Below are positions 14,817 through 28,164 of a stretch of DNA of 63,616 nucleotides, in pieces. The number at the start of each line of letters is the position of its first letter. Position 1 is the first letter of the stretch. The translations under genes and the position numbers were made by a program. Source of the stretch: Oscillospiraceae bacterium (GTDB lineage Bacteria > Bacillota > Clostridia > Oscillospirales > Oscillospiraceae); NCBI GenBank assembly GCA_902798545.1, contig CADBWQ010000017.1:1-63616 (forward strand), written 5' to 3'. The notes beneath the pieces were generated by a model. That model was not told the DNA's origin. It was given only the letters and a program-made list of their open reading frames with translations, and searched no databases.

Positions 14817-15143
14817 CTTTCCCTCCTGTAAATAATAAAGACTGCATGCCGGAGCATACAGTCTTGCAATCATATGGGTATGAAAAAACCCAATCGGTTA
14901 TAGAGCCTCTTATCAGGGAAGACAGACCTACTCTTATTGACCATTTCACAAGTTTGTATGCCAAAAGGCACTGGTTTATAGTTACCAACTTATAAAACTT
15001 GAGCTTTTAACTCAATCAATAAGGCAACGCGTGGTTGCCGCCGCATCACAGCGGTATTCGGCGTTCGACCCGGCTGTCCGTGTGGCCTCGGCTGCAAAAA
15101 GCAGCGGTCGTATCTGGCTTCGGATAACTCTATCCAATTGAGA
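14817..15143 (-). promoter_or_regulatory. Long structured 5' leader of the pot operon (candidate cis-regulatory RNA)
   Basis: About 325 nt between the predicted start site and potA contain no supported gene but many hairpins: GGATA-GAGT-TATCC, GCTGC-T5-GCAGC, CCGC-N6-GCGG, GGCAAC-N5-GTTGCC, TGCC-TTTT-GGCA, and finally the terminator-like stem before potA. A short second T-rich stop (AACC-N5-GGTT plus TTTTC) precedes it. I could not match it to the FMN, TPP, SAM, lysine, ykkC, c-di-GMP or T-box consensus. A polyamine- or metabolite-sensing role is inference from the operon. Confidence 0.55.
14831..14865 (-). terminator. Terminator-like hairpin immediately before potA
   Basis: An 11-bp stem (AAGACTGTATG/CATGCAGTCTT, one G-U) with loop CTCCGG is followed by TATTATT and then the potA ribosome site. 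Its position makes it an attenuator rather than an end of a gene. Confidence 0.75.
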
Positions 15144-19052: not shown

Positions 19053-19056
19053 ACAG

Positions 19057-19166
19057 CCGTCTTCAGGGCAGGGTGTGATTCCCGACCGGCGGTAAAGTCC
19101 GCGAGCCTCACGGCATGATCCGGTGTGATTCCGGAACCGACAGTACAGTCTGGATGGAAGAAGATG
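19057..19166 (+). promoter_or_regulatory. FMN riboswitch (RFN element)
   Basis: The conserved blocks are all present in order: CTTCAGGGCAGGGTG, ATTCCCGACCGGCGGTAAAG, CCGCGAGCC, GATCCGGTGTGATTCCGGA, CCGACAGTACAGTCTGGAT, and the closing GAAGAAGAT. It binds flavin mononucleotide. With the terminator at 19203-19236 it should switch off ribU when FMN is plentiful. Confidence 0.97.
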
Positions 19167-19202
19167 GTGAATTCCATATTTTCCATGCCCTCTTTCCGCG
19201 CG

Positions 19203-19236
19203 CCTGAAGATTTGTCTTCAGGTATTTTTGTTTTTT
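19203..19236 (+). terminator. Riboswitch terminator
   Basis: Perfect stem CCTGAAGA/TCTTCAGG followed by TATTTTTGTTTTTT, ending at the ribU ribosome site. It is the expression platform of the FMN element. Confidence 0.93.
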
Positions 19237-19248
19237 GGAGGGAAACAC

Positions 19249-19911
19249 ATGAAAACAAGCAAAATGTCCACACGCTACATGGCGGCTGTCGCCATGTTTG
19301 CGGCCGTCTCCTTTGTCGCCGTACTGGTGAGCAAGGTGATTCCCAATGTCGCGGGCTTTTTGAGCTATGAGCCGAAGGACGCGGTGATCGTGATTGCGGG
19401 CCTGCTGTACGGTCCGCTGACCAGCGTCCTGATCTCGGTGATTGTCTCGTTTATCGAGATGATCAGCATCAGCTCCACCGGGCCTTACGGTTTTCTGATG
19501 AATGTGGTGTCGACCTGCGCATTCGCCGTACCGGCAGCGTGGTACTATCAGAAGCACCGCACACAGAAGGACGCGGTGGTTGGTCTCGCCTTTGGCGTCG
19601 TGACCATGGCGGTGGCGATGATGCTTTGGAACTACATCATTACGCCGTATTATATGGGTGTTCCCAGGGCCACAGTGGCGGGCATGATGATGACGGTGTT
19701 CCTGCCGTTCAATCTGGTCAAGGGCGGCATCAACGCGGGCCTCACACTGCTGCTTTATAAACCGATTGTCGGCGCGCTGCGGAAAGCCCACCTCGCCGAA
19801 CCCAGCAAGAGCGCGCAGAAGGGGAGCTTCAGTGCGGGATTTACGCTCTTCGCGCTGGCGGTCCTTGTGACTTTTGTTCTGCTGTTCCTTGTGATGATCG
19901 GCGTGCTTTGA
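19249..19911 (+). CDS. ribU: Riboflavin ECF transporter S component RibU
   Basis: A 220-aa membrane protein with six predicted helices, starting at ATG 19249 after GGAGGG. The RibU pattern is seen: the first helix with YMAAVAMFAAVSFVAVLVSKVIP, then FLSYEPKDAVIVIAGLLYGPLTSVLISVIVSFIEM, SSTGPYGFLMNVVSTCAFAVPAAW, and NLVKGGINAGLTLLLYKPI near the end. It binds riboflavin outside and works with shared EcfA/EcfT subunits encoded elsewhere. The upstream FMN riboswitch makes the substrate assignment firm. Confidence 0.96.
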   Translation: MKTSKMSTRYMAAVAMFAAVSFVAVLVSKVIPNVAGFLSYEPKDAVIVIAGLLYGPLTSVLISVIVSFIEMISISSTGPYGFLMNVVSTCAFAVPAAWYYQKHRTQKDAVVGLAFGVVTMAVAMMLWNYIITPYYMGVPRATVAGMMMTVFLPFNLVKGGINAGLTLLLYKPIVGALRKAHLAEPSKSAQKGSFSAGFTLFALAVLVTFVLLFLVMIGVL

Positions 19912-19919
19912 AATAATTC

Positions 19920-19948
19920 TTGACAATCTTTGCAGTTTGGACTATATT
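19920..19948 (+). promoter_or_regulatory. Promoter of the shikimate operon
   Basis: TTGACA-17 bp-TATATT immediately after ribU. It drives the leader peptide, attenuator and aro genes. Confidence 0.88.
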
Positions 19949-19978
19949 ACTAGCAGTTCCGATCATGGAGGAATACTG

Positions 19979-20035
19979 ATGAAGGCTTTTCGTTTTGCAT
20001 CCTATTATTATTACTTTACTGACTCGCTTCGGTAA
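19979..20035 (+). CDS. Phe/Tyr-rich leader peptide of the shikimate operon
   Basis: An 18-residue peptide, MKAFRFASYYYYFTDSLR, with GGAGG 7 bp before its ATG and a TAA stop. Seven of the 18 residues are Phe or Tyr, including four Tyr in a row (TAT TAT TAT TAC). It sits between the promoter and a strong terminator upstream of aroF. Bases 19985-19991 (GCTTTTC, inside the early codons) can pair with GAAAAGC at 20053-20059. Ribosome stalling on scarce Tyr/Phe-tRNA would block that pairing and favour read-through, as in classical amino acid attenuation. The mechanism is inferred; the peptide, RBS and terminator are visible. Confidence 0.85.
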   Translation: MKAFRFASYYYYFTDSLR

Positions 20036-20077
20036 GGATAATTTGTGGTGCAGAAAAGCTCGAATTCATGAGAAATG

Positions 20078-20108
20078 CCGCACAGGTTATCCTGTGCGGT
20101 TTTTGTTT
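20078..20108 (+). terminator. Attenuator terminator before aroF
   Basis: Perfect 9-bp stem CCGCACAGG/CCTGTGCGG with loop TTAT, then TTTTTGTTTT and the aroF ribosome site. The upstream segment 20042-20051 (TTTGTGGTGC) can partly pair with the 5' arm as an anti-terminator. Confidence 0.93.
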
Positions 20109-20120
20109 TGGAGGTACAAG

Positions 20121-21122
20121 ATGATCGTTGTTTTAAAGCACGGAGTTTCGGATGAAAAAAAGGCGCAGCTGATCGCGTGGCTGGAAGCACTCGGACTTCG
20201 GATTCATATTTCCGACGGAGAGTTTCAGACGGTCCTCGGCCTGATCGGCGACACCAGCCGGGTTGATATCGACCTTGTGGAGAGCCTGGAGATCGTGGAT
20301 TCGGTGAAGCGCGTGACAGAGCCGTTCAAGTGCTGCAACCGCAAGTTCCACCCGGAGGATATGGTTGTTGAGATCGGTGATGTTAAAGTCGGCGGCGGCA
20401 ACTTCGTCATGATCGCAGGACCCTGCTCGGTCGAATCGGAAGAACAGATCGTCACCGTGGCGAAAGCGGTCAAGGCGGCCGGGGCGCAGCTCATGCGCGG
20501 CGGCGCATTCAAACCGCGCACTTCTCCTTATGATTTCGCCGGGCTGAAGGCAACGGGTCTAGAGTTTCTGAAGATCGCACGGCAGGAGACCGGTCTCCCC
20601 ATCGTGACAGAGCTGATGAACATCATGGATCTTCCGCTCTTCGAGGATGTGGATGTGATTCAGGTTGGGGCCAGAAACATGCAGAATTTTGACCTGCTTC
20701 GGGAGCTTGGGCGGCTGGACAAACCGATCCTTCTCAAGCGCGGCCTGGCCAACACCCTGAAGGAGCTGCTGATGAGCGCTGAATACATCATGGCCAACGG
20801 CAACGAGCGTGTCATGCTCTGCGAGCGAGGGATCCGCACCTTCTCCGACTATACCAGAAACACGCTGGATCTCGCTGCGGTACCGATGCTTCATCAGCTG
20901 ACCCATCTGCCGATCATCGTGGATCCGAGCCATGCCACGGGAATTGCAAAGCTGGTGCCGCCCATGGCGCTTGCCGCCACGGCCGGCGGCGCGGACGGAC
21001 TGATCATCGAGGTCCATAATGACCCGATCCATGCGCTGTGCGACGGAGCCCAGTCCCTGCGGCCGGAGGAGTTTGCGGAACTCGCGGAAAAGATCCGCGC
21101 CATCAGGGGGATTGTGGCATGA
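20121..21122 (+). CDS. aroF: 3-deoxy-7-phosphoheptulonate (DAHP) synthase
   Basis: A 333-aa type I-beta DAHP synthase, the first step of aromatic synthesis (phosphoenolpyruvate plus erythrose 4-phosphate). Residues 1-70 are the ferredoxin-like regulatory domain typical of this class (MIVVLKHGVSDEKKAQLIAWL). The barrel has IAGPCSVESEEQ, LMRGGAFKPRTSPYDFAG, ARNMQNFDLLRELG, KPILLKRGLANTLKE, CERGIRTF, and IVDPSHATG. The start is set by GGAGG before ATG 20121. Besides feedback through the N-terminal domain, transcription is probably attenuated by the leader peptide. It overlaps tyrA by ATGA. Confidence 0.96.
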   Translation: MIVVLKHGVSDEKKAQLIAWLEALGLRIHISDGEFQTVLGLIGDTSRVDIDLVESLEIVDSVKRVTEPFKCCNRKFHPEDMVVEIGDVKVGGGNFVMIAGPCSVESEEQIVTVAKAVKAAGAQLMRGGAFKPRTSPYDFAGLKATGLEFLKIARQETGLPIVTELMNIMDLPLFEDVDVIQVGARNMQNFDLLRELGRLDKPILLKRGLANTLKELLMSAEYIMANGNERVMLCERGIRTFSDYTRNTLDLAAVPMLHQLTHLPIIVDPSHATGIAKLVPPMALAATAGGADGLIIEVHNDPIHALCDGAQSLRPEEFAELAEKIRAIRGIVA

Positions 21123-21955
21123 GTACGGTCGGAGTCGTCGGCCTGGGCCTCATTGGCGGCAGCTTTGCAAAAGCCTATCATGCCGCGGGATGGGAGGTTC
21201 TTGCCTCCAACCGCACCAAGAGCGTTTTGGACTTTGCGATGCTCTCCGGGGATGTGAACGGGGAACTGACCAACGAGAACGTGGGCAGCTGTGACCTTGT
21301 GCTGGTTACCATATATCCGGAGGCGGCCATCCGGGCCATCCGGGAATTCGCCCCCTATTTCGGGAAAAAACCGCTGGTGATGGATTGCTGCGGGACCAAG
21401 CGGGACGTCTGCGAGGCGGTCTTCCCGATCGCCGAGGAATACGGATTTCTGTATGTCGGGGGACATCCGATGGCCGGTACCCAGTATTCCGGATACAAAT
21501 ACGCCAAGGCAAACATGTACCACAATGCGCCGATGGTGATTGTCCCGCCGAAATATGACGACATCTTCCTGCTGGAACATGTCAAGGAGCTGCTTGCACC
21601 GGCCGGGTTCAACCGGATTTCCGTCACAACGGCGGAAAAACATGACGAGATGATCGCCTTCACCTCGCAGCTGGCGCACGTGGTCTCCAATGCCTACGTC
21701 AAAAGCCCGACGTCCCGCATACACCACGGGTTCTCTGCAGGAAGCTATAAGGATCTGACTCGTGTGGCCTGGCTCAACGCGCCGATGTGGGCGGAGCTGT
21801 TCCTGGAAAACAAGGATCATCTTCTGGCCGAGGTGAACGGACTGATCGAGCATCTGGACGCCTATCGCAGAGCAATGGAAGCGGACGACCGGGAGGAGCT
21901 GACCCGGCTGCTTGAAGAGGGCAAGCGGATCAAGGAGGAGGTTGACGGCCGATGA
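21119..21955 (+). CDS. tyrA: Prephenate dehydrogenase
   Basis: A 278-aa enzyme of the tyrosine branch, converting prephenate to 4-hydroxyphenylpyruvate with NAD(P). The Rossmann start is VGVVGLGLIGGSFAKAYH. The dehydrogenase core contains DCCGTKRDVCEAV, VGGHPMAGTQYSGY, and the catalytic-helix region HDEMIAFTSQLAHVVSNAY, then GFSAGSYKDLTRVA. No ACT or chorismate mutase domain is attached; the mutase is on pheA in this operon. It overlaps aroF by 4 bp and aroB by 4 bp. Confidence 0.95.
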   Translation: MSTVGVVGLGLIGGSFAKAYHAAGWEVLASNRTKSVLDFAMLSGDVNGELTNENVGSCDLVLVTIYPEAAIRAIREFAPYFGKKPLVMDCCGTKRDVCEAVFPIAEEYGFLYVGGHPMAGTQYSGYKYAKANMYHNAPMVIVPPKYDDIFLLEHVKELLAPAGFNRISVTTAEKHDEMIAFTSQLAHVVSNAYVKSPTSRIHHGFSAGSYKDLTRVAWLNAPMWAELFLENKDHLLAEVNGLIEHLDAYRRAMEADDREELTRLLEEGKRIKEEVDGR

Positions 21956-23004
21956 GGTGCGTCCATGTCAAAACCGATTCCGCGTCCTATGACGTGAAGA
22001 TCGGCGCCGGCCTGCTGGACACGATCGGTCGGGAACTCAGAGTCTGCACCGATGCGAAGACGGTCGTCGTGGTCTCCGGAGAGAATGTCTTCCCGATTTA
22101 CGGGGAACGCGTGCTCAACAGCCTGCGTTCGGCCGGGTTTCGGGCCGAGGCCAAAGTCTTTCCTTCGGGAGAGGAGACGAAAAGCCTCGCCTCATATGGA
22201 GAATTGCTGAATCTGCTGACAGAATGCAGGCTGACCAGATCCGACTGCCTTGTGGCGCTCGGTGGGGGCGTGACGGGAGATCTGACGGGCTTTGCCGCGG
22301 CGACGTATCAGCGCGGCATTCGGTATGTCCAGGTACCGACGACGCTTCTCGCGGCAGTGGATTCCTCCGTCGGCGGAAAGACCGCGGTGAATCTTCCGGC
22401 GGCCAAGAACCAGGTCGGCGCATTTCACCAGCCGTCTCTTGTCCTGTGTGATACCGGGACGCTTGATACGCTTCCGGAGCGTGAGCTGAACGCGGGCTTC
22501 GCAGAGGTCATCAAGGACAGTGTCATTGCCGATCCCGATCTGTTCGACCTGCTGCAGCAGGGGAACTTCGACAGAGAGAGCATCATCGAAGCCTGCGTAA
22601 ACATGAAGGCCGACATTGTCGCCGAGGATGAACACGATTTCGGCAGAAGGCGGCTTCTGAATCTGGGGCATACCTTCGGACATGCGATTGAGGCCAGAAG
22701 CCGGTATGAACTGCTCCATGGCGAGGCGGTCGCCATCGGGACGGCGATGATCGTCCGGGCGGCCGTTCGGATGGGAATTCTGGATACAGGGTCCAGAGAC
22801 GCTGTGATTGAGCTTCTGAAGCAGTTTAGGCTGCCGGTTGAACCGCCTTATTCCGCGGATGAGCTGTTCGACATCCTGCTTTTGGACAAGAAGATCGCTT
22901 CCGGCCGGCTTCATCTTATCGTTCCGCGCTCCGTCGGATGGTGTGAAGCGATCCCGGTGGACAGAGAAGCGCTGAGAAGATGGCTGGAGGCCGCATATGA
23001 ATAG
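21952..23004 (+). CDS. aroB: 3-dehydroquinate synthase
   Basis: A 350-aa NAD- and metal-dependent enzyme making 3-dehydroquinate from DAHP. Visible landmarks are FPSGEETKSLASYGELL, LVALGGGVTGDLTGFAAATYQRGI, QVPTTLLAAVDSSVGGKTAVNLPAAKNQVGAFHQP, and NLGHTFGHAIEARS with metal-binding His. Length is normal. It overlaps both neighbours, consistent with tight translational coupling. Confidence 0.96.
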   Translation: MRCVHVKTDSASYDVKIGAGLLDTIGRELRVCTDAKTVVVVSGENVFPIYGERVLNSLRSAGFRAEAKVFPSGEETKSLASYGELLNLLTECRLTRSDCLVALGGGVTGDLTGFAAATYQRGIRYVQVPTTLLAAVDSSVGGKTAVNLPAAKNQVGAFHQPSLVLCDTGTLDTLPERELNAGFAEVIKDSVIADPDLFDLLQQGNFDRESIIEACVNMKADIVAEDEHDFGRRRLLNLGHTFGHAIEARSRYELLHGEAVAIGTAMIVRAAVRMGILDTGSRDAVIELLKQFRLPVEPPYSADELFDILLLDKKIASGRLHLIVPRSVGWCEAIPVDREALRRWLEAAYE

Positions 23005-24298
23005 ATGCATTCCTCCGGGCACCTGTTCCGGTGAGCTGCGAATCCCGTCCTCCAAATCGGTGGTGCACAGGCTCCTGATCTGCGCGGCACTCGGGGAGAA
23101 GAATGTCCGAATCCGGCTGAACGGGCTGTCCAAAGACATCCGTGCCACGGCAGACTGTCTCGCCGCGCTGGGCGCGGAGATTCAGATGAGCGAGAGCGAG
23201 CTTTTCGTCCGCCCGTCGGTCAGAAAGGAATCGGGCAACACCGTTCGAATCCTGCCCGCCGGGGAGAGCGGGTCAACCCTCCGGTTTCTGGTGCCGATCG
23301 TTGGAGCGCTCAAACAAAGCGCCGACTTTATCATGGAAGGACGGCTGTCAAAGCGGCCGATGGCTCCGTTTGACCGTATCCTCCGGGAGCATGGAATGAA
23401 TATCCGGCAGGATGGCGACATCCTGCACTGCAACGGGGACCTGCAGGGCGGTATGTTTCGGCTTCCCGGAAATGTCTCCTCCCAGTATTTCACCGGTCTT
23501 CTGCTGGCGCTTCCGCTGCTGCCGGAGGACAGCAGCCTGCTCGTCGACGGAGAGCTGGAGTCCGCGGCGTATGTGGCTCTGACGGAAGACGTACTGTCCC
23601 TTGCGGGGATTCGTTTTGATCGTGTGGACAGCCTCCGGTGGCATGTGTACGGCGGCCAGACCCCGAAACTCCCGGATCACGTATCCGCAGAAGGAGACTG
23701 GTCCAATGCCGCATTCTTCCTGTGTGCAGGCGCACTTTCAGAGCGCGGCGTGTGTGTCTCCGGGCTGAACCGGGACTCTGCACAGGGAGACCGCGCGATT
23801 CTGGAAGTGCTCAGAGATTTTGGCGCCGAAGTGGAAGAAGACGGCGACCGTGTCCGGGTTAAACGCCGTGCGGCGCGTCCGCTCTGCGTGGAAGCGGGTG
23901 AGATTCCGGATCTGGTACCGGTCCTGGCGGTGCTGTGCTGCGGCGCCGAAGGCGTCTCGGAGATTCGGGGCGCCGCCCGGCTGCGCCTGAAGGAATCCGA
24001 CCGCCTGCATACGACCGCGGCGCTGATCAACAGCCTCGGAGGCCGCGCAGAGGAGCTGCCGGACGGCATCAGAATCTTTGGCTGCGGTACACTGCGCGGC
24101 GGTGAGGCGGATGCATTCAATGATCATAGAATTGCGATGAGCGCCGCTGTGGCATCTCTGCTCTGCGATACACCCGTCACCGTATGCGGTGCAGAGTGCG
24201 TGGAGAAGTCCTATCCCGCTTTCTGGCGCGATTTTGAGTCTGTCCAAGAAACCGGAGTGAAGGCTTCCAAAGGAGAAGACGGGAGGTCTCAGAGATGA
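22997..24298 (+). CDS. aroA: 3-phosphoshikimate 1-carboxyvinyltransferase (EPSP synthase)
   Basis: A 433-aa enzyme joining phosphoenolpyruvate to shikimate 3-phosphate. The start region is ELRIPSSKSVVHRLLICAAL. The PEP loop is ILPAGESGSTLRFLVPI, with a Glu where most bacterial enzymes have NAGTAMR, as in class II-like proteins. VSSQYFTGLLLALP, GDWSNAAFFLCAGAL, RLKESDRLHTTAALI and FNDHRIAMSAAVA follow. Two alpha/beta lobes are complete. The altered PEP loop would be relevant to inhibitor sensitivity but this cannot be judged here. Confidence 0.95.
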   Translation: MNRCIPPGTCSGELRIPSSKSVVHRLLICAALGEKNVRIRLNGLSKDIRATADCLAALGAEIQMSESELFVRPSVRKESGNTVRILPAGESGSTLRFLVPIVGALKQSADFIMEGRLSKRPMAPFDRILREHGMNIRQDGDILHCNGDLQGGMFRLPGNVSSQYFTGLLLALPLLPEDSSLLVDGELESAAYVALTEDVLSLAGIRFDRVDSLRWHVYGGQTPKLPDHVSAEGDWSNAAFFLCAGALSERGVCVSGLNRDSAQGDRAILEVLRDFGAEVEEDGDRVRVKRRAARPLCVEAGEIPDLVPVLAVLCCGAEGVSEIRGAARLRLKESDRLHTTAALINSLGGRAEELPDGIRIFGCGTLRGGEADAFNDHRIAMSAAVASLLCDTPVTVCGAECVEKSYPAFWRDFESVQETGVKASKGEDGRSQR

Positions 24299-25377
24299 GC
24301 AGTATATTTACCGGTTCAAGCCTGCGGCTGTCCGTATTCGGCCAGAGCCACAGCGAAGCCATCGGCATGACGCTGGATGGGCTCCCGGCCGGTCTGCCTG
24401 TCGATTTGGATTGTCTGCAGCGGTTTCTGAATCGACGCGCGCCGGGCCGGAACGACTGGTCCACACCGCGGCGGGAGAGTGACAGACCGGAATTCCTTTC
24501 CGGACTGAAAGACGGAAAGACCTGCGGCGCACCGCTCACAGCGATCATCCGCAATACCAATACGCGCGGAAAAGATTATGACGCGCTCCGGGTTGTGCCA
24601 AGGCCCGGCCACGCCGACTATACCGCACATGTCCGCTACGGCGGAAACCAGGACTATTTTGGGGGAGGGCACTTCTCCGGGCGGCTGACCGCGGCGCTCT
24701 GCATTGCGGGTGGGGTCCTGCTGCAGTTGCTTGAAAATGCAGACATTGCAGTTTGCGCCAGAATTCTGAGCATTGCAGGGATTGAGGACACTTCGCCCTT
24801 TGAAGTGCCGGTGGATGAAAAAATCTTCCCGACGGTTTCTGATGAGAAGGGAAGAGAGATGCAGGCTGCCATTGCCGCTGCCAGGGCGGACGGAGACTCT
24901 GTCGGCGGCGTGATCGAGTGCTTTATCCGGGGCGTGCCTGCCGGGATCGGCGCACCGATGTTTGACGGAATTGAAAACCGGATCGCGCAGCTTGTATTTG
25001 CCATTCCCGCCGTGAAGGGCATCGAATTCGGCGCCGGCTTCCGCTCCGCGTCCATGCGCGGCAGCGAGCACAACGACGGATACCTTGTGTCCGAAGGAAG
25101 AGTCCGGACCAGAACCAATCACGCGGGGGGCATATTGGGCGGTATCAGCAGTGGGGAGGATATCCTCTTCCGCGCCGCGGTCAAACCGACGCCCTCCATC
25201 GCAAAGGAACAGGAGAGCGTGAATCTCGAGACCATGCAGGCGGAGACGCTGCATGTCTCCGGACGGCATGACCCCTGCATCGTACCCCGCGCAGTGCCGG
25301 TCATTGAGGCTGCAGCAGCCATTGCAATCACAGACTTGTACCTGGGAGGAAGACAGGATGGATTTATCAGACTATAG
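24295..25377 (+). CDS. aroC: Chorismate synthase
   Basis: A 360-aa FMN-dependent enzyme converting EPSP to chorismate. Signatures: GQSHSEAIGMTLDGLPAGLPVD, then RPGHADYTAHVRYGGNQDYFGGGHFSGRLTAALCIAGG, VGGVIECFIRGVPAGIG and GIEFGAGFRSASMRGSEHND. It is full length. It overlaps aroA by 4 bp and pheA by 20 bp. It needs reduced FMN, which ties in loosely with the adjacent riboflavin uptake unit. Confidence 0.97.
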   Translation: MSSIFTGSSLRLSVFGQSHSEAIGMTLDGLPAGLPVDLDCLQRFLNRRAPGRNDWSTPRRESDRPEFLSGLKDGKTCGAPLTAIIRNTNTRGKDYDALRVVPRPGHADYTAHVRYGGNQDYFGGGHFSGRLTAALCIAGGVLLQLLENADIAVCARILSIAGIEDTSPFEVPVDEKIFPTVSDEKGREMQAAIAAARADGDSVGGVIECFIRGVPAGIGAPMFDGIENRIAQLVFAIPAVKGIEFGAGFRSASMRGSEHNDGYLVSEGRVRTRTNHAGGILGGISSGEDILFRAAVKPTPSIAKEQESVNLETMQAETLHVSGRHDPCIVPRAVPVIEAAAAIAITDLYLGGRQDGFIRL

Positions 25378-26500
25378 ACAGAAACTGGACCAAATCGATG
25401 ATCAGATCCTGAGTCTCTTTACAGAGCGCATGGACATCGCGGCAGAGATTGCAGCCTGGAAGCGGGAGAACAGCCTCCCGGTGCTGGATGTAAAAAGAGA
25501 AAAGGAAAAACTCGCGCATATTGACGAGAAGAGCCCGCCCGAGCTTTCCGATTACACCTTCACGCTGTTTTCCGTCCTGCTGGAGCTGTCGCGCAGTCGT
25601 CAGAACCGTATTCTGCACCGGGAGAGTGCGGAAAAGGCAGCAATCGAGACCGCGCTGCGCGAGACACCGCCGCTGTTTCCGGAGAAAGCAGTTGTCGCCT
25701 GTCAGGGGGTAGAGGGAGCGTATTCAGGGATCGCCTGTGAGAAACTCTTTGCCAGACCCAGCATCTTTTATTTTTCCACCTTCGACGCGGTGTTCACCGC
25801 AGTGGAGAAGGGACTCTGCCGATACGGCGTGATCCCGGTGGAAAACTCCACCGCCGGCACAGTGAACGCGGTTTACGACCTGATGGTCAGGCATGATTTC
25901 CGTATTGTGCGTTCCGTACGGATCAAAGTCGACCACAATCTCCTCGTGAAACCGGGGACAAAGGCAGAGGATATCTGTGAAATCTACTCCCACGGTCAGG
26001 CGCTGGCCCAGTGCGCCAACTTCCTGCAGCGTTTCCCGAACGCGAAAGTAATCCCGTGCGAGAATACGGCAGTCGCGGCCAAAATGGTCGCGGAGTCCTC
26101 CGAACCGGGCGTCGCCGCGCTTTCTTCCCGCAGCTGCGCGCGCCTCTACGGTCTGGAAAACCTGATGAGCTCCGTACAGGACTCCGCAGATAACTATACC
26201 CGGTTTATCTGTATTTCCAAGAATCTGGAGATCTATCCCGGCGCGGATCATACAAGCCTGATGATGGTGATTCGGGATGAGCCGGGCACGCTTTATAATG
26301 TGCTGGCGAGATTCTATGCGCTGGGCATCAACATGCACAAGCTGGAAAGCCGCCCCATTCCGGGAAGAAACTGGGAGTATCGGTTCTATTTTGATCTGGA
26401 TACTTCGGTGTATTCGCCGCGCTTTATCCAGCTGATGGGAGAACTCGGAGATGTCTGTGAGGAACATGAGTATCTCGGCAGCTACAGTGAGGTGGTTTGA
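25358..26500 (+). CDS. pheA: Bifunctional chorismate mutase / prephenate dehydratase
   Basis: A 380-aa phenylalanine-branch enzyme. Residues 1-85 are an AroQ-class chorismate mutase (YRQKLDQIDDQILSLFTERMDIAAEIAAWKRE). Residues 110-285 are the dehydratase (VACQGVEGAYSGIACEKLF, GVIPVENSTAGTVNAVYDLM, and DNYTRFICIS). Residues 295-375 are an ACT domain (TSLMMVIRDEPGTLYNVLARF, then KLESRPIPGRNWEYRFYFD) for Phe feedback. The start is chosen at ATG 25358 because GGGAGGA lies 7 bp upstream. It has PheA length and architecture with all three parts intact. Confidence 0.96.
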   Translation: MDLSDYRQKLDQIDDQILSLFTERMDIAAEIAAWKRENSLPVLDVKREKEKLAHIDEKSPPELSDYTFTLFSVLLELSRSRQNRILHRESAEKAAIETALRETPPLFPEKAVVACQGVEGAYSGIACEKLFARPSIFYFSTFDAVFTAVEKGLCRYGVIPVENSTAGTVNAVYDLMVRHDFRIVRSVRIKVDHNLLVKPGTKAEDICEIYSHGQALAQCANFLQRFPNAKVIPCENTAVAAKMVAESSEPGVAALSSRSCARLYGLENLMSSVQDSADNYTRFICISKNLEIYPGADHTSLMMVIRDEPGTLYNVLARFYALGINMHKLESRPIPGRNWEYRFYFDLDTSVYSPRFIQLMGELGDVCEEHEYLGSYSEVV

Positions 26501-27718
26501 ATGAAATGCGGCCTGCTCGGCGAAAAGCTCGGTCACAGCTATTCGCCGCAGATTCATGCGGCGCTGGCGGACTACGAATACCTTCTCTACGAAAAAACAC
26601 CGGAGGAGGTAGGGGACTTTGTCCGAAACGGAGACTGGCACGGGCTGAACGTCACGATCCCGTATAAGAAAACCGTCATCCCGTTCTGTGACGAGCGCAC
26701 AGAACTGGCAGAAGCGATTGGAAGCGTGAACACGCTGCTCCGGCGTCCGGACGGCAGCATCCTCGGAGACAACACCGACGCATTCGGATTCGAGGCTCTG
26801 CTCTCCGCCGCCTCATTTGCGCCGGCAGGGAAGAAAGCCCTCGTCCTCGGCAGCGGTGGCGCTTCGGCAACGGTCTGTGCCTGCCTTCGAAGAAGGGGCG
26901 CTGACGTCGTCGTGGTCTCGCGCAGCGGTGAGACCAACTATGAAAACGTCACAAAGCACAGGAATGCCGCACTGGTCGTAAACACAACCCCGCTTGGCAT
27001 GTATCCCGGAAACGGAAAGAAGGCGCTGGATTTAACCGCATTTCCAAATCTTGAAGCCGTTCTGGATGTGGTCTATAACCCGGCGAGAACCGCACTTCTT
27101 CTTCAGGCCGAGGAACTCGGAATTCCATGTGCGGGCGGGCTTCGGATGCTGGTGGCGCAGGGGGTCAGAGCCTCTGAAATCTTCCTTGGACACAAGCATC
27201 CGCAGGACGCGCTGGAGAATATCCTGCACCGGCTCAGCACGGAGATGCAGAATGTCATCCTCATCGGGATGCCCGGCTCCGGCAAGTCCACGATCGCCTC
27301 TCTTCTGGCTGAGAAACTCGGGAGAGTGTCCGTGGAAGCGGATGCGGAACTTGAGAAAGCAGCCGGCATGACTATTCCTGAAATCTTTTCTGCAGAGGGA
27401 GAGGCCGGCTTCCGCAGGCGCGAAACTGCGATTCTCGAAGAGCTTGGAAAGCGTTCCGGACTTGTGATCTCCACCGGCGGCGGCTGCGTAACCCGTAAAG
27501 AAAACTACCCGCTTCTGCACCAGAATGGAAAGATCATACGGATTACCAGGGACATTAAAAAACTCTCAAGAGAGGGGAGACCGCTCTCTTTAAACGCAGA
27601 CCTGTCTGAAATGGCGGAAGTGAGAAACCCGATGTATGAACGCTTCGCCGACGTGACCGTATCCAATGACGGAACACCCGAAGAAGCGGTACAGGCAATC
27701 ATGGAGGTGCTGAAATGA
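26501..27718 (+). CDS. aroEK: Shikimate dehydrogenase-shikimate kinase fusion
   Basis: A 405-aa two-domain protein. Residues 1-245 are shikimate dehydrogenase: GEKLGHSYSPQIHAAL, LNVTIPYKKTVIPFCDE with the catalytic Lys, GSVNTLLR, GDNTDAFGF, ALVLGSGGASATVCACL for NADP, NTTPLGMYP, and GGLRMLVAQ. Residues 250-405 are shikimate kinase: VILIGMPGSGKSTIASLLAEKLG (Walker A), then a DAELEKAAG segment, GEAGFRRRETAILEEL, and STGGGCVTRKENYPLL. It carries out consecutive-but-one pathway steps on one chain. The start is next to the pheA stop without a gap. Confidence 0.96.
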   Translation: MKCGLLGEKLGHSYSPQIHAALADYEYLLYEKTPEEVGDFVRNGDWHGLNVTIPYKKTVIPFCDERTELAEAIGSVNTLLRRPDGSILGDNTDAFGFEALLSAASFAPAGKKALVLGSGGASATVCACLRRRGADVVVVSRSGETNYENVTKHRNAALVVNTTPLGMYPGNGKKALDLTAFPNLEAVLDVVYNPARTALLLQAEELGIPCAGGLRMLVAQGVRASEIFLGHKHPQDALENILHRLSTEMQNVILIGMPGSGKSTIASLLAEKLGRVSVEADAELEKAAGMTIPEIFSAEGEAGFRRRETAILEELGKRSGLVISTGGGCVTRKENYPLLHQNGKIIRITRDIKKLSREGRPLSLNADLSEMAEVRNPMYERFADVTVSNDGTPEEAVQAIMEVLK

Positions 27719-28164
27719 AGTTCCTGATCATCAACGGTCCGAATCTCAACATGCTGGGGATTCGGGAGCCGGACATCTACGGTACGCAGAACTTCCGGGC
27801 TCTGCAGCGGTATATCTATGACTGCTGTCTTGACGAGGGGATCGAGCCGGTCCTGTTCCAATCCAACCATGAGGGGGCAATCGTGGACCGGATTCAGGCG
27901 GCTTACAGGGACGCGGACGGTATCATTATCAACCCGGCAGCGTATACGCACACCAGTGTTGCCATCCTGGACGCGCTGAAGGCGGTCGCCATTCCCGCGG
28001 TGGAAGTTCACCTGTCGGAAGTCAGCGCGCGGGAGAGCTTCCGTCAGATCTCCTATCCGGGCATGGCATGTATCAGGACCTATGCCGGAATGGGCTTCGA
28101 AGGCTACCGCCAGGCAATCCTCTTCCTGAAAGAATGGCTTCAGAACAAACAGCCACCCATCTGA
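27715..28164 (+). CDS. aroQ: 3-dehydroquinate dehydratase, type II
   Basis: A 149-aa dodecamer-type dehydroquinase removing water from 3-dehydroquinate. IINGPNLNMLGIREPDIYG carries the catalytic Arg and the Tyr is in its usual place. QSNHEGAIVDRIQAAY, IINPAAYTHTSVAILDAL and EVHLSEVSARESFRQ are intact. It completes the seven-step set in this operon and is the last gene, followed by a terminator. Confidence 0.97.
   Translation: MKFLIINGPNLNMLGIREPDIYGTQNFRALQRYIYDCCLDEGIEPVLFQSNHEGAIVDRIQAAYRDADGIIINPAAYTHTSVAILDALKAVAIPAVEVHLSEVSARESFRQISYPGMACIRTYAGMGFEGYRQAILFLKEWLQNKQPPI

Follow-up and report, generated by a model that had tools for sequence, protein, structure and literature searches.

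How a clostridial genome that also carries T-boxes senses its supply of aromatic amino acids is the question raised by a short leader region in the DNA analyzed here (the window, 63,616 nucleotides from an Oscillospiraceae bacterium). The leader sits between an ECF-transporter-like gene, which ends at 19911, and aroF, which starts at 20121. Leader-peptide attenuation is a textbook mechanism. For instance, the enterobacterial pheA and pheST attenuators combine a Phe-rich leader ORF with a competing antiterminator and intrinsic terminator. The first-pass annotation of this locus proposed an attenuator responding to both Phe and Tyr, a reading supported by conservation, covariation and a simulation of ribosome masking. 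The leader very probably works as a ribosome-mediated transcription attenuator with charged tRNA-Phe and tRNA-Tyr as its signals.

The elements of the leader and the genes behind it are collected in Table 1. The transcript would begin near 19955, and the peptide, MKAFRFASYYYYFTDSLR, carries its regulatory codons at positions 4, 6 and 13 (Phe) and 9 to 12 (Tyr). An 18-residue peptide with its own GGAGG, placed between a promoter and aroF together with a terminator, had been noticed in the first pass, and each of these elements is recovered. The eight genes from aroF to aroQ overlap or abut and are predicted to form a shikimate operon. Two are named tyrA-like and pheA-like because their models score below the curated cut-offs; the start of the former was set at the ATG at 21119, the stretch scanned being 21113-21952. 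Phe and Tyr are the products of this operon, and NCBIfam finds no trp gene among the eight; the peptide, with F and Y but no W, matches this. Terminator-like sites between 20050 and 28300 are as frequent as in shuffled sequence (8 on both strands vs 7.9); on the sense strand, the leader terminator is joined only by a weak site of six pairs at 23596.

Table 1. Features of the aroF leader and the genes downstream of it.
Feature	Position	Strand	Basis
Sigma-70-type promoter, TTGACA-17-TATATT	19920-19948	+	Consensus scan, 11/12 consensus bases
Shine-Dalgarno GGAGG of the leader ORF	19967-19971	+	Sequence; 7 nt 5′ of the ATG
Leader peptide ORF, MKAFRFASYYYYFTDSLR*, 18 codons	19979-20035	+	Translation, conservation
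Protector helix, 5′ arm, within the ORF, pairing with 20049-20059	19985-19999	+	MFE; arm-swap test
Protector helix, 3′ arm	20049-20059	+	Predicted fold; arm-swap test
ORF-end hairpin, 9 pairs, stop codon in 3′ arm	20014-20037	+	Covariation on one measure
Antiterminator strand, GGATAATTTGTG-GT-GCA	20036-20052	+	Pairing with 20076-20092, covariation
Antiterminator partner: terminator 5′ arm, loop and first two bases of 3′ arm	20076-20092	+	Folding, covariation, shuffles
Intrinsic terminator, stem 20077-20100 (10 pairs), T-rich tail TTTTGTTTTG	20077-20109	+	Sequence; covariation
aroF, 3-deoxy-7-phosphoheptulonate synthase (DAHP synthase), first operon gene	20121-21122	+	NCBIfam NF006421 and TIGR01361 over cut-off
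tyrA-like prephenate dehydrogenase	21119-21955	+	NCBIfam prephenate dehydrogenase models, below curated cut-offs
aroB	21952-23004	+	TIGR01357 over cut-off
aroA	22997-24298	+	TIGR01356 over cut-off
aroC	24295-25377	+	TIGR00033 over cut-off
pheA-like chorismate mutase / prephenate dehydratase	25358-26500	+	NF008865, NF007910, below cut-off
aroE-aroK-like fusion, one ORF	26501-27718	+	aroE model residues 3-236, shikimate kinase models from about 245; below cut-off
aroQ, type II 3-dehydroquinate dehydratase	27715-28164	+	NF003805 over cut-off

Two further features of the window lie upstream. An FMN riboswitch (117 bits, 19055-19169) stands ahead of the gene at 19228-19911, which resembles an ECF transporter S-component and has its best NCBIfam match, below cut-off, in the folate family. 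At 15058-15110 on the minus strand, this clostridial genome holds an over-cut-off match to the Streptococcus sRNA family SpF59 (RF02440).

A simple reading of the leader would be a constitutive or protein-controlled terminator behind an ORF that is aromatic by chance. Six genus relatives with short, peptide-less leaders, described below, are the observation that such a reading would draw on. It is exceedingly improbable, as the Phe/Tyr score of the leader ORF was reached in 0/200 dinucleotide shuffles of the 500-nt upstream region, and the aromatic ORF and its reading-frame bias are kept across the genus. The fold of the window leader is likewise unusual (z -5.3, with 1/200 shuffles equally stable).

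A search for DAHP synthase in 119 relatives, mostly draft genomes and many of them metagenome-assembled, gave a match in 90, of which 60 belong to the genus (own genome included). The upstream regions of 55 were read; G004, G008, G021 and G022 were left out because the match starts inside the gene, and G062 because it is weak. An aromatic leader ORF is found in 49/55, in line with the conserved Phe/Tyr codons that the first-pass annotation had proposed looking for. Among these 49 ORFs, 46 beat their own dinucleotide shuffles (at most 10/200), and the other three (L028, L029 and L046, with 62, 67 and 12 of 200) are recognized by alignment only. An SD-like motif accompanies 44/49 leaders, and a promoter-like site (at least 9/12) stands within 140 nt 5′ of the leader ATG in 47/49, a raw count without a shuffle baseline. 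Relatives that lack the peptide while keeping a terminator, named in the first pass as the finding that would speak against an attenuator, are confined to a minority. The peptide is absent from 6/55 regions (L049, L053, L072, L086, L087 and L095), whose aroF leaders are short and several of which show, by eye, a hairpin and T run near the gene.

Named genomes were also scanned by a second route, a pattern that describes the stop codon with the strand following it and makes no use of the peptide. The scan gave 50 places, 46 of which stand 91-363 nt 5′ of an aroF match, and at 45 of these 46 an in-frame aromatic ORF ends at that very stop; the 46th (L104) has its aromatic ORF, by eye, in another frame. 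Among the remaining four, L115 has the peptide, though its stretch stops short of aroF; peptide and aroF are both missing at L098, L108 and L132. Most of these places belong to the genus again and come partly from the same genomes, so the records overlap and the second route does not count as independent of the first.

Fifty genus leaders (40 from the genus search and 10 named records, with nine atypical ones left out) were aligned as A2, in which the conserved blocks are the ORF end, the strand behind the stop and the terminator. Phe and Tyr make up 327/895 residues in frame, against 53/845 and 144/845 in the other two frames. All 50 peptides contain both residues and none contains Trp (means of 3.0 Phe and 3.5 Tyr); a single Phe is found in L021, L031 and L136 and a single Tyr in L025.

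The same alignment carries evidence for the competing structures. At the terminator, 25 double-change cells were counted vs a shuffled mean of 4.1 (0/500), and 5/10 pairs changed on both sides (0/500 shuffles). The antiterminator strand is paired with 20076-20092 in 98.1% of 750 cells, with 16 double-change cells vs a shuffled mean of 3.4 (0/500) and three pairs with a double change, a number reached in 11/500 shuffles. The ORF-end hairpin shows 27 such cells vs 9.0 (0/500); it is weakly supported, because its three pairs with a double change were equaled in 108/500 shuffles and are no better than shuffled. If the partners are displaced by 1 to 3 columns, no more than 58% of cells remain paired, compared with 92-98% in register.

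The pairings proposed in the first pass stand in part. The pairing of 19985-19991 with 20053-20059 occurs in the predicted fold as part of the protector helix between the ORF start and 20049-20059, which column-wise covariation does not support (53.5% paired in A2). When its arms were swapped among leaders, own arms gave -14.58 vs -12.0 kcal/mol for swapped arms (0/2000 permutations; 1/5000 in a divergent subset of 21), and it is retained as a weaker, putatively compensating helix. The pairing of 20042-20051 with the terminator arm overlaps the antiterminator and misses half of it. The best pairing joins GGATAATTTGTG (20036-20047, directly behind the stop codon) to CACAGGTTATCC (20081-20092) through 12 contiguous complementary pairs, extended beyond a two-by-two internal loop by GCA (20050-20052) with TGC (20076-20078). 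The duplex has a predicted energy of -18.9 kcal/mol, and 0/300 shuffles of the strand bind as well.

The effect of a translating ribosome on this switch was simulated with an assumed footprint, in which the RNA is masked as far as 15 bases beyond the first base of the A-site codon, and with equilibrium folds of chosen lengths rather than kinetics. In nascent RNA ending at 20092, the 15-pair antiterminator forms with the ribosome at Phe4, Phe6, any of Tyr9-12, Phe13 or Thr14. A ribosome at Leu17 leaves the strand half of its 12 antiterminator pairs; one at Arg18 or the stop codon covers the strand, and the full-length fold then has the terminator. In full-length equilibrium folds, the antiterminator is favored only with the ribosome at Tyr10 to Phe13, and the terminator is more stable with it at Phe4, Phe6, Tyr9 or Thr14, so that the outcome at the early codons and at Thr14 would hang on the order of folding. 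The genus behaves alike. With a stall nine codons before the stop, a codon that is Tyr in 47 of the 50 leaders, the antiterminator (at least 8/12 pairs) forms in 50/50; with the ribosome at the stop it forms in 0/50 and the terminator (at least 7/10 pairs) in 49/50.

When no ribosome is present, the window leader folds back, its strand pairs within the ORF and the terminator forms. The terminator also forms in 48/50 leaders when the full untranslated RNA is folded. Default termination without translation is clear in these folds for the window and 28 others and may not be general, because the antiterminator forms in 21/50 leaders when the untranslated RNA is nascent (5′ UTR left out).

The order of events suggested by the anatomy, conservation and covariation is as follows. 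When charged tRNA-Phe or tRNA-Tyr runs short, a ribosome would stall in the leader ORF at codons 4-13 and leave the strand 20036-20052 free to pair with the emerging 5′ arm of the terminator. This antiterminator would block the terminator, and the operon would be transcribed. When both charged tRNAs are plentiful, a ribosome at the last codons or the stop would cover the strand and the terminator would form; a leader without a ribosome would fold back on itself, hide the strand and, in the window, terminate too. The hallmarks of leader-peptide attenuators that can be read from sequence are present: an ORF in the 5′ leader that can be translated from its own ribosome-binding site, codons for the amino acids that the pathway makes, a terminator between leader and first gene, and, as judged from sequence, covariation and folding, a mutually exclusive antiterminator that stalling would free and a ribosome at the stop would mask.

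Stalling could also have a different cause. In TnaC-type systems, a small molecule stalls the ribosome on the nascent chain, and the signal is not a lack of charged tRNA. An arrest peptide of this type, with free Tyr, Phe or a product bound by the ribosome and nascent chain, would account for the YYYYFT core, which is well conserved across the genus. However, it is mainly composition that is kept: counted from the stop, Phe and Tyr are both found at codons -6, -8, -9, -10, -12 and -13, the residue count differs among genus members, and quite different aromatic peptides occur in other families. The FT pair, moreover, belongs to the arm of the ORF-end hairpin opposite the stop codon. An arrest peptide is thus very unlikely, and attenuation through charged tRNA is preferred.

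A further alternative is a T-box or metabolite riboswitch in which the ORF is incidental. The genome does use T-boxes: six matches, only one of them over the family cut-off, precede valS, trpD, pheS, asnB, thrS and a TrpX-like gene (L005), and those at pheS, trpD and the TrpX-like gene lend this alternative some plausibility. The window also gives a weak full-length match to the Rfam trpB motif (RF04312; 22.8 bits against a cut-off of 59). The search that found the six T-boxes returned no T-box (RF00230) on the window's contig, however, and no Rfam family reaches its gathering score over the leader. The conserved blocks, too, are those of an attenuator, namely the ORF end, the strand behind it and the terminator, and a T-box or riboswitch at this place is scarcely credible.

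The leader has a counterpart in the same genome. R1, a covariance model built from A2, matches the genome in two places, the aroF leader and G000:C10:139699-139833 on the minus strand (53.1 bits, E 2.4e-9). This second copy (L246) has the ORF MKALSFAAAYYYRYYFRKTK and an antiterminator of GAAGTTTGTGCTGC with GCCGCACGGACTTC (-19.4 kcal/mol, 0/300 shuffles), and it precedes a gene for an ABC substrate-binding protein (PF04392) whose only NCBIfam model is TrpX (207.6 bits, cut-off 390). The TrpX-like gene behind the T-box also scores below cut-off (202.1 bits). One genome therefore seems, from these sequence matches, to use both sensing systems, with one of two TrpX-like paralogs under each.

TrpX-like proteins occur in 34/46 genus genomes. 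Thirty loci were taken, 28 of them with upstream sequence, and an ORF with a Phe/Tyr/Trp score of at least 4 precedes the gene in 24/28. In 100 base shuffles of each leader, the score was reached 19 times for L305, four times each for L306, L308 and L328, once for L329 and never for the rest. In the 22 peptides that remain without L331 and one duplicate, Tyr occurs 100 times and Phe 52 times, and Trp is absent. R1 matches from other genera of the order lie before TrpB-like genes (by NCBIfam for L247), where the peptides add Trp and the antiterminator layout is the same. Examples are ..FIWWRF.. (L247), ..YWYFYF.. (L250) and ..KYWRYFNF.. (L253 and L257, from one genus). For L248, the antiterminator duplex was not found in the stretches tried (216/300 shuffles as good).

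Aromatic leaders extend well beyond the genus. A strict ORF test, which asks for a score of 6 or more and no more than 2/200 shuffles, is passed by 16/33 upstream regions in other families of the order. A class-wide search covered 147 genomes, 109 of them with DAHP synthase, and 89 regions were read: 29 from the best-scoring loci (where L164 is the same place as L076) and 60 selected from a subset of the matches listed, mostly matches beginning at residue 1. The ORF test (at most 1/100 shuffles) is passed by 41/89, and the raw score of 6 is reached on the reverse strand of 7. Outside the genus as a whole, with the duplicate removed, 56/121 regions pass. In several other families the ORF, by eye, runs through the antiterminator-like strand and stops later, for instance ending GYFCCKK or GKACFG.

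These counts bear on the expectation, voiced in the first pass, that T-boxes would be more usual in Firmicutes. At aroF in the class sample the opposite holds: 24 of the 60 selected regions have an aromatic ORF, 7 others a T-box and 29 neither. T-boxes reach the gathering score in 5/60, where no other Rfam family does, and two more (L198 and L235) appear at E 0.001 among the 36 regions without an aromatic ORF. The gathering score is strict for T-boxes: of the six matches in the window's genome, a single one attains it.

The ancestry of these leaders can be approached through a short core. TTTGTGnTG[CT] occurs in 10/56 aromatic leaders outside the genus vs 2/65 regions without one (shuffled mean 0.27); a looser core is less telling (11/56 vs 5/65, shuffled mean 2.32). 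This enrichment makes a common origin with the genus leaders likely for some leaders outside the genus, and for the rest it is unproved; common ancestry of the aromatic leader family is, on these sequence grounds, partly supported. R1 itself matches 18/147 genomes in the order at E 0.01 and 8/196 in the class at E 0.001, own genome included in both. It reaches few other genera, so the class-wide spread rests on the ORF test and not on the model. No convincing leader with a target gene was seen at R1 matches L254, L256, L261, L262, L264 and L301, and L252 was left out for its short flank.

The trpB motif met above offers another case. RF04312 has been put forward in print as a strong riboswitch candidate by authors who do not rule out a classic attenuator (PMC11109978). 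The window was rejected as a member of the family at the score given above. RF04312 matches over cut-off occur in 35/148 genomes in the order of genome G624, and the Lactococcus lactis controls match below cut-off. Thirty loci were read (L265 and L268-L296), comprising 29 of the 37 over-cut-off matches among the 104 matches listed and one at 58.9 bits. All 30, which are related to each other and have 29 distinct peptides, show an ATG ORF with its stop beginning 12-24 nt before the match and at least one Trp in the last 12 residues. W..W is present in 27/30, mostly as WQ[NS]WRR or close to it. In shuffled upstream regions, W..W was found in 0/3000 and a Trp in 95/3000. The downstream proteins of L265 and L269 match TrpX over cut-off, and others resemble TrpX or TrpB by eye. 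The RF04312 trpB motif is, on this evidence, probably a Trp leader-peptide attenuator.

In Clostridia, RF04312 is over cut-off in 0/196 genomes, and nine weaker matches are present. Five of these (L177, L178, L179, L180 and L183) follow His-run peptides before genes that look hisZ-like by eye, consistent with published His attenuators. L182 lies between a Tyr-rich ORF and an NSS-type transporter gene (by eye), L181 has no convincing leader and L184 was left out as a short stretch. In a phylum sample, 1/299 genomes holds a match over cut-off, and the two other new, weaker matches (L266 and L267) lack a convincing leader.

It is likely, taken as a whole, that aromatic leader-peptide attenuators are widespread in Clostridia (Phe/Tyr before aroF operons, Tyr-rich before the TrpX-like transporter and Trp-containing before TrpB-like genes), that they share the core TTTGTG-nn-GC and run an aromatic regulon beside T-boxes, and that the trpB motif works by this mechanism too, as a Trp leader-peptide attenuator. 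Attenuation of this kind has long been known; no description of the aromatic leader family was met in the sources searched, and it extends further than first supposed. In the open-licence literature searched, no paper was recognized as describing aromatic leader peptides at clostridial aroF genes or a Trp leader ORF at the trpB motif. A 2013 survey suggests that amino acid attenuators likely originated in gamma-proteobacteria (PMC3766115). The occurrence of aromatic leaders before aroF in many Clostridia families suggests that ribosome-based sensing is older or arose more often. An attenuator is thereby found across a bacterial class better known for the T-box sensor, and ribosome-based sensing appears to coexist with T-boxes in one genome. 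A regulatory input is also proposed for the shikimate operon in gut bacteria, and an Rfam riboswitch candidate is made testable as something else.

Among known systems, the enterobacterial pheA and pheST leaders share with the window a Phe-rich ORF and an antiterminator set against a terminator. They respond mainly to Phe and serve pheA or pheST, whereas the window leader has Phe and Tyr codons and precedes aroF of an eight-gene operon in Clostridia; none of the Rfam leader families matches it at gathering score. A closer parallel by gene is the uORFC-13-1 motif, a uORF before Acholeplasma aroF for which attenuation has been proposed (PMC8632094). Like the window, it places an aroF uORF with one or more Phe codons beside a terminator, but it differs in its 24 representatives from Acholeplasma and environmental sequences with at least one Phe (PMC8632094). 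His leader-peptide attenuators have been described in Firmicutes (PMC9413887, PMC2965389) and likewise show ordinary leader-peptide attenuation outside Proteobacteria, with T-boxes occurring elsewhere; they differ in using histidine codons and in serving his operons or hisS/hisZ genes. The RF04312 trpB motif (PMC11109978) resembles the window leader in its hairpin, antiterminator region and terminator, and in all 30 loci read a Trp-codon ORF stops just short of it. The T-box, which controls a Tyr biosynthesis operon of the Bacillus cereus group (PMC2494555), senses tRNA charging and acts by antitermination on amino acid genes of Firmicutes, as the window leader would. It binds the tRNA directly and needs no ORF, whereas the aroF leader would read the same signal through a ribosome translating its aromatic codons.
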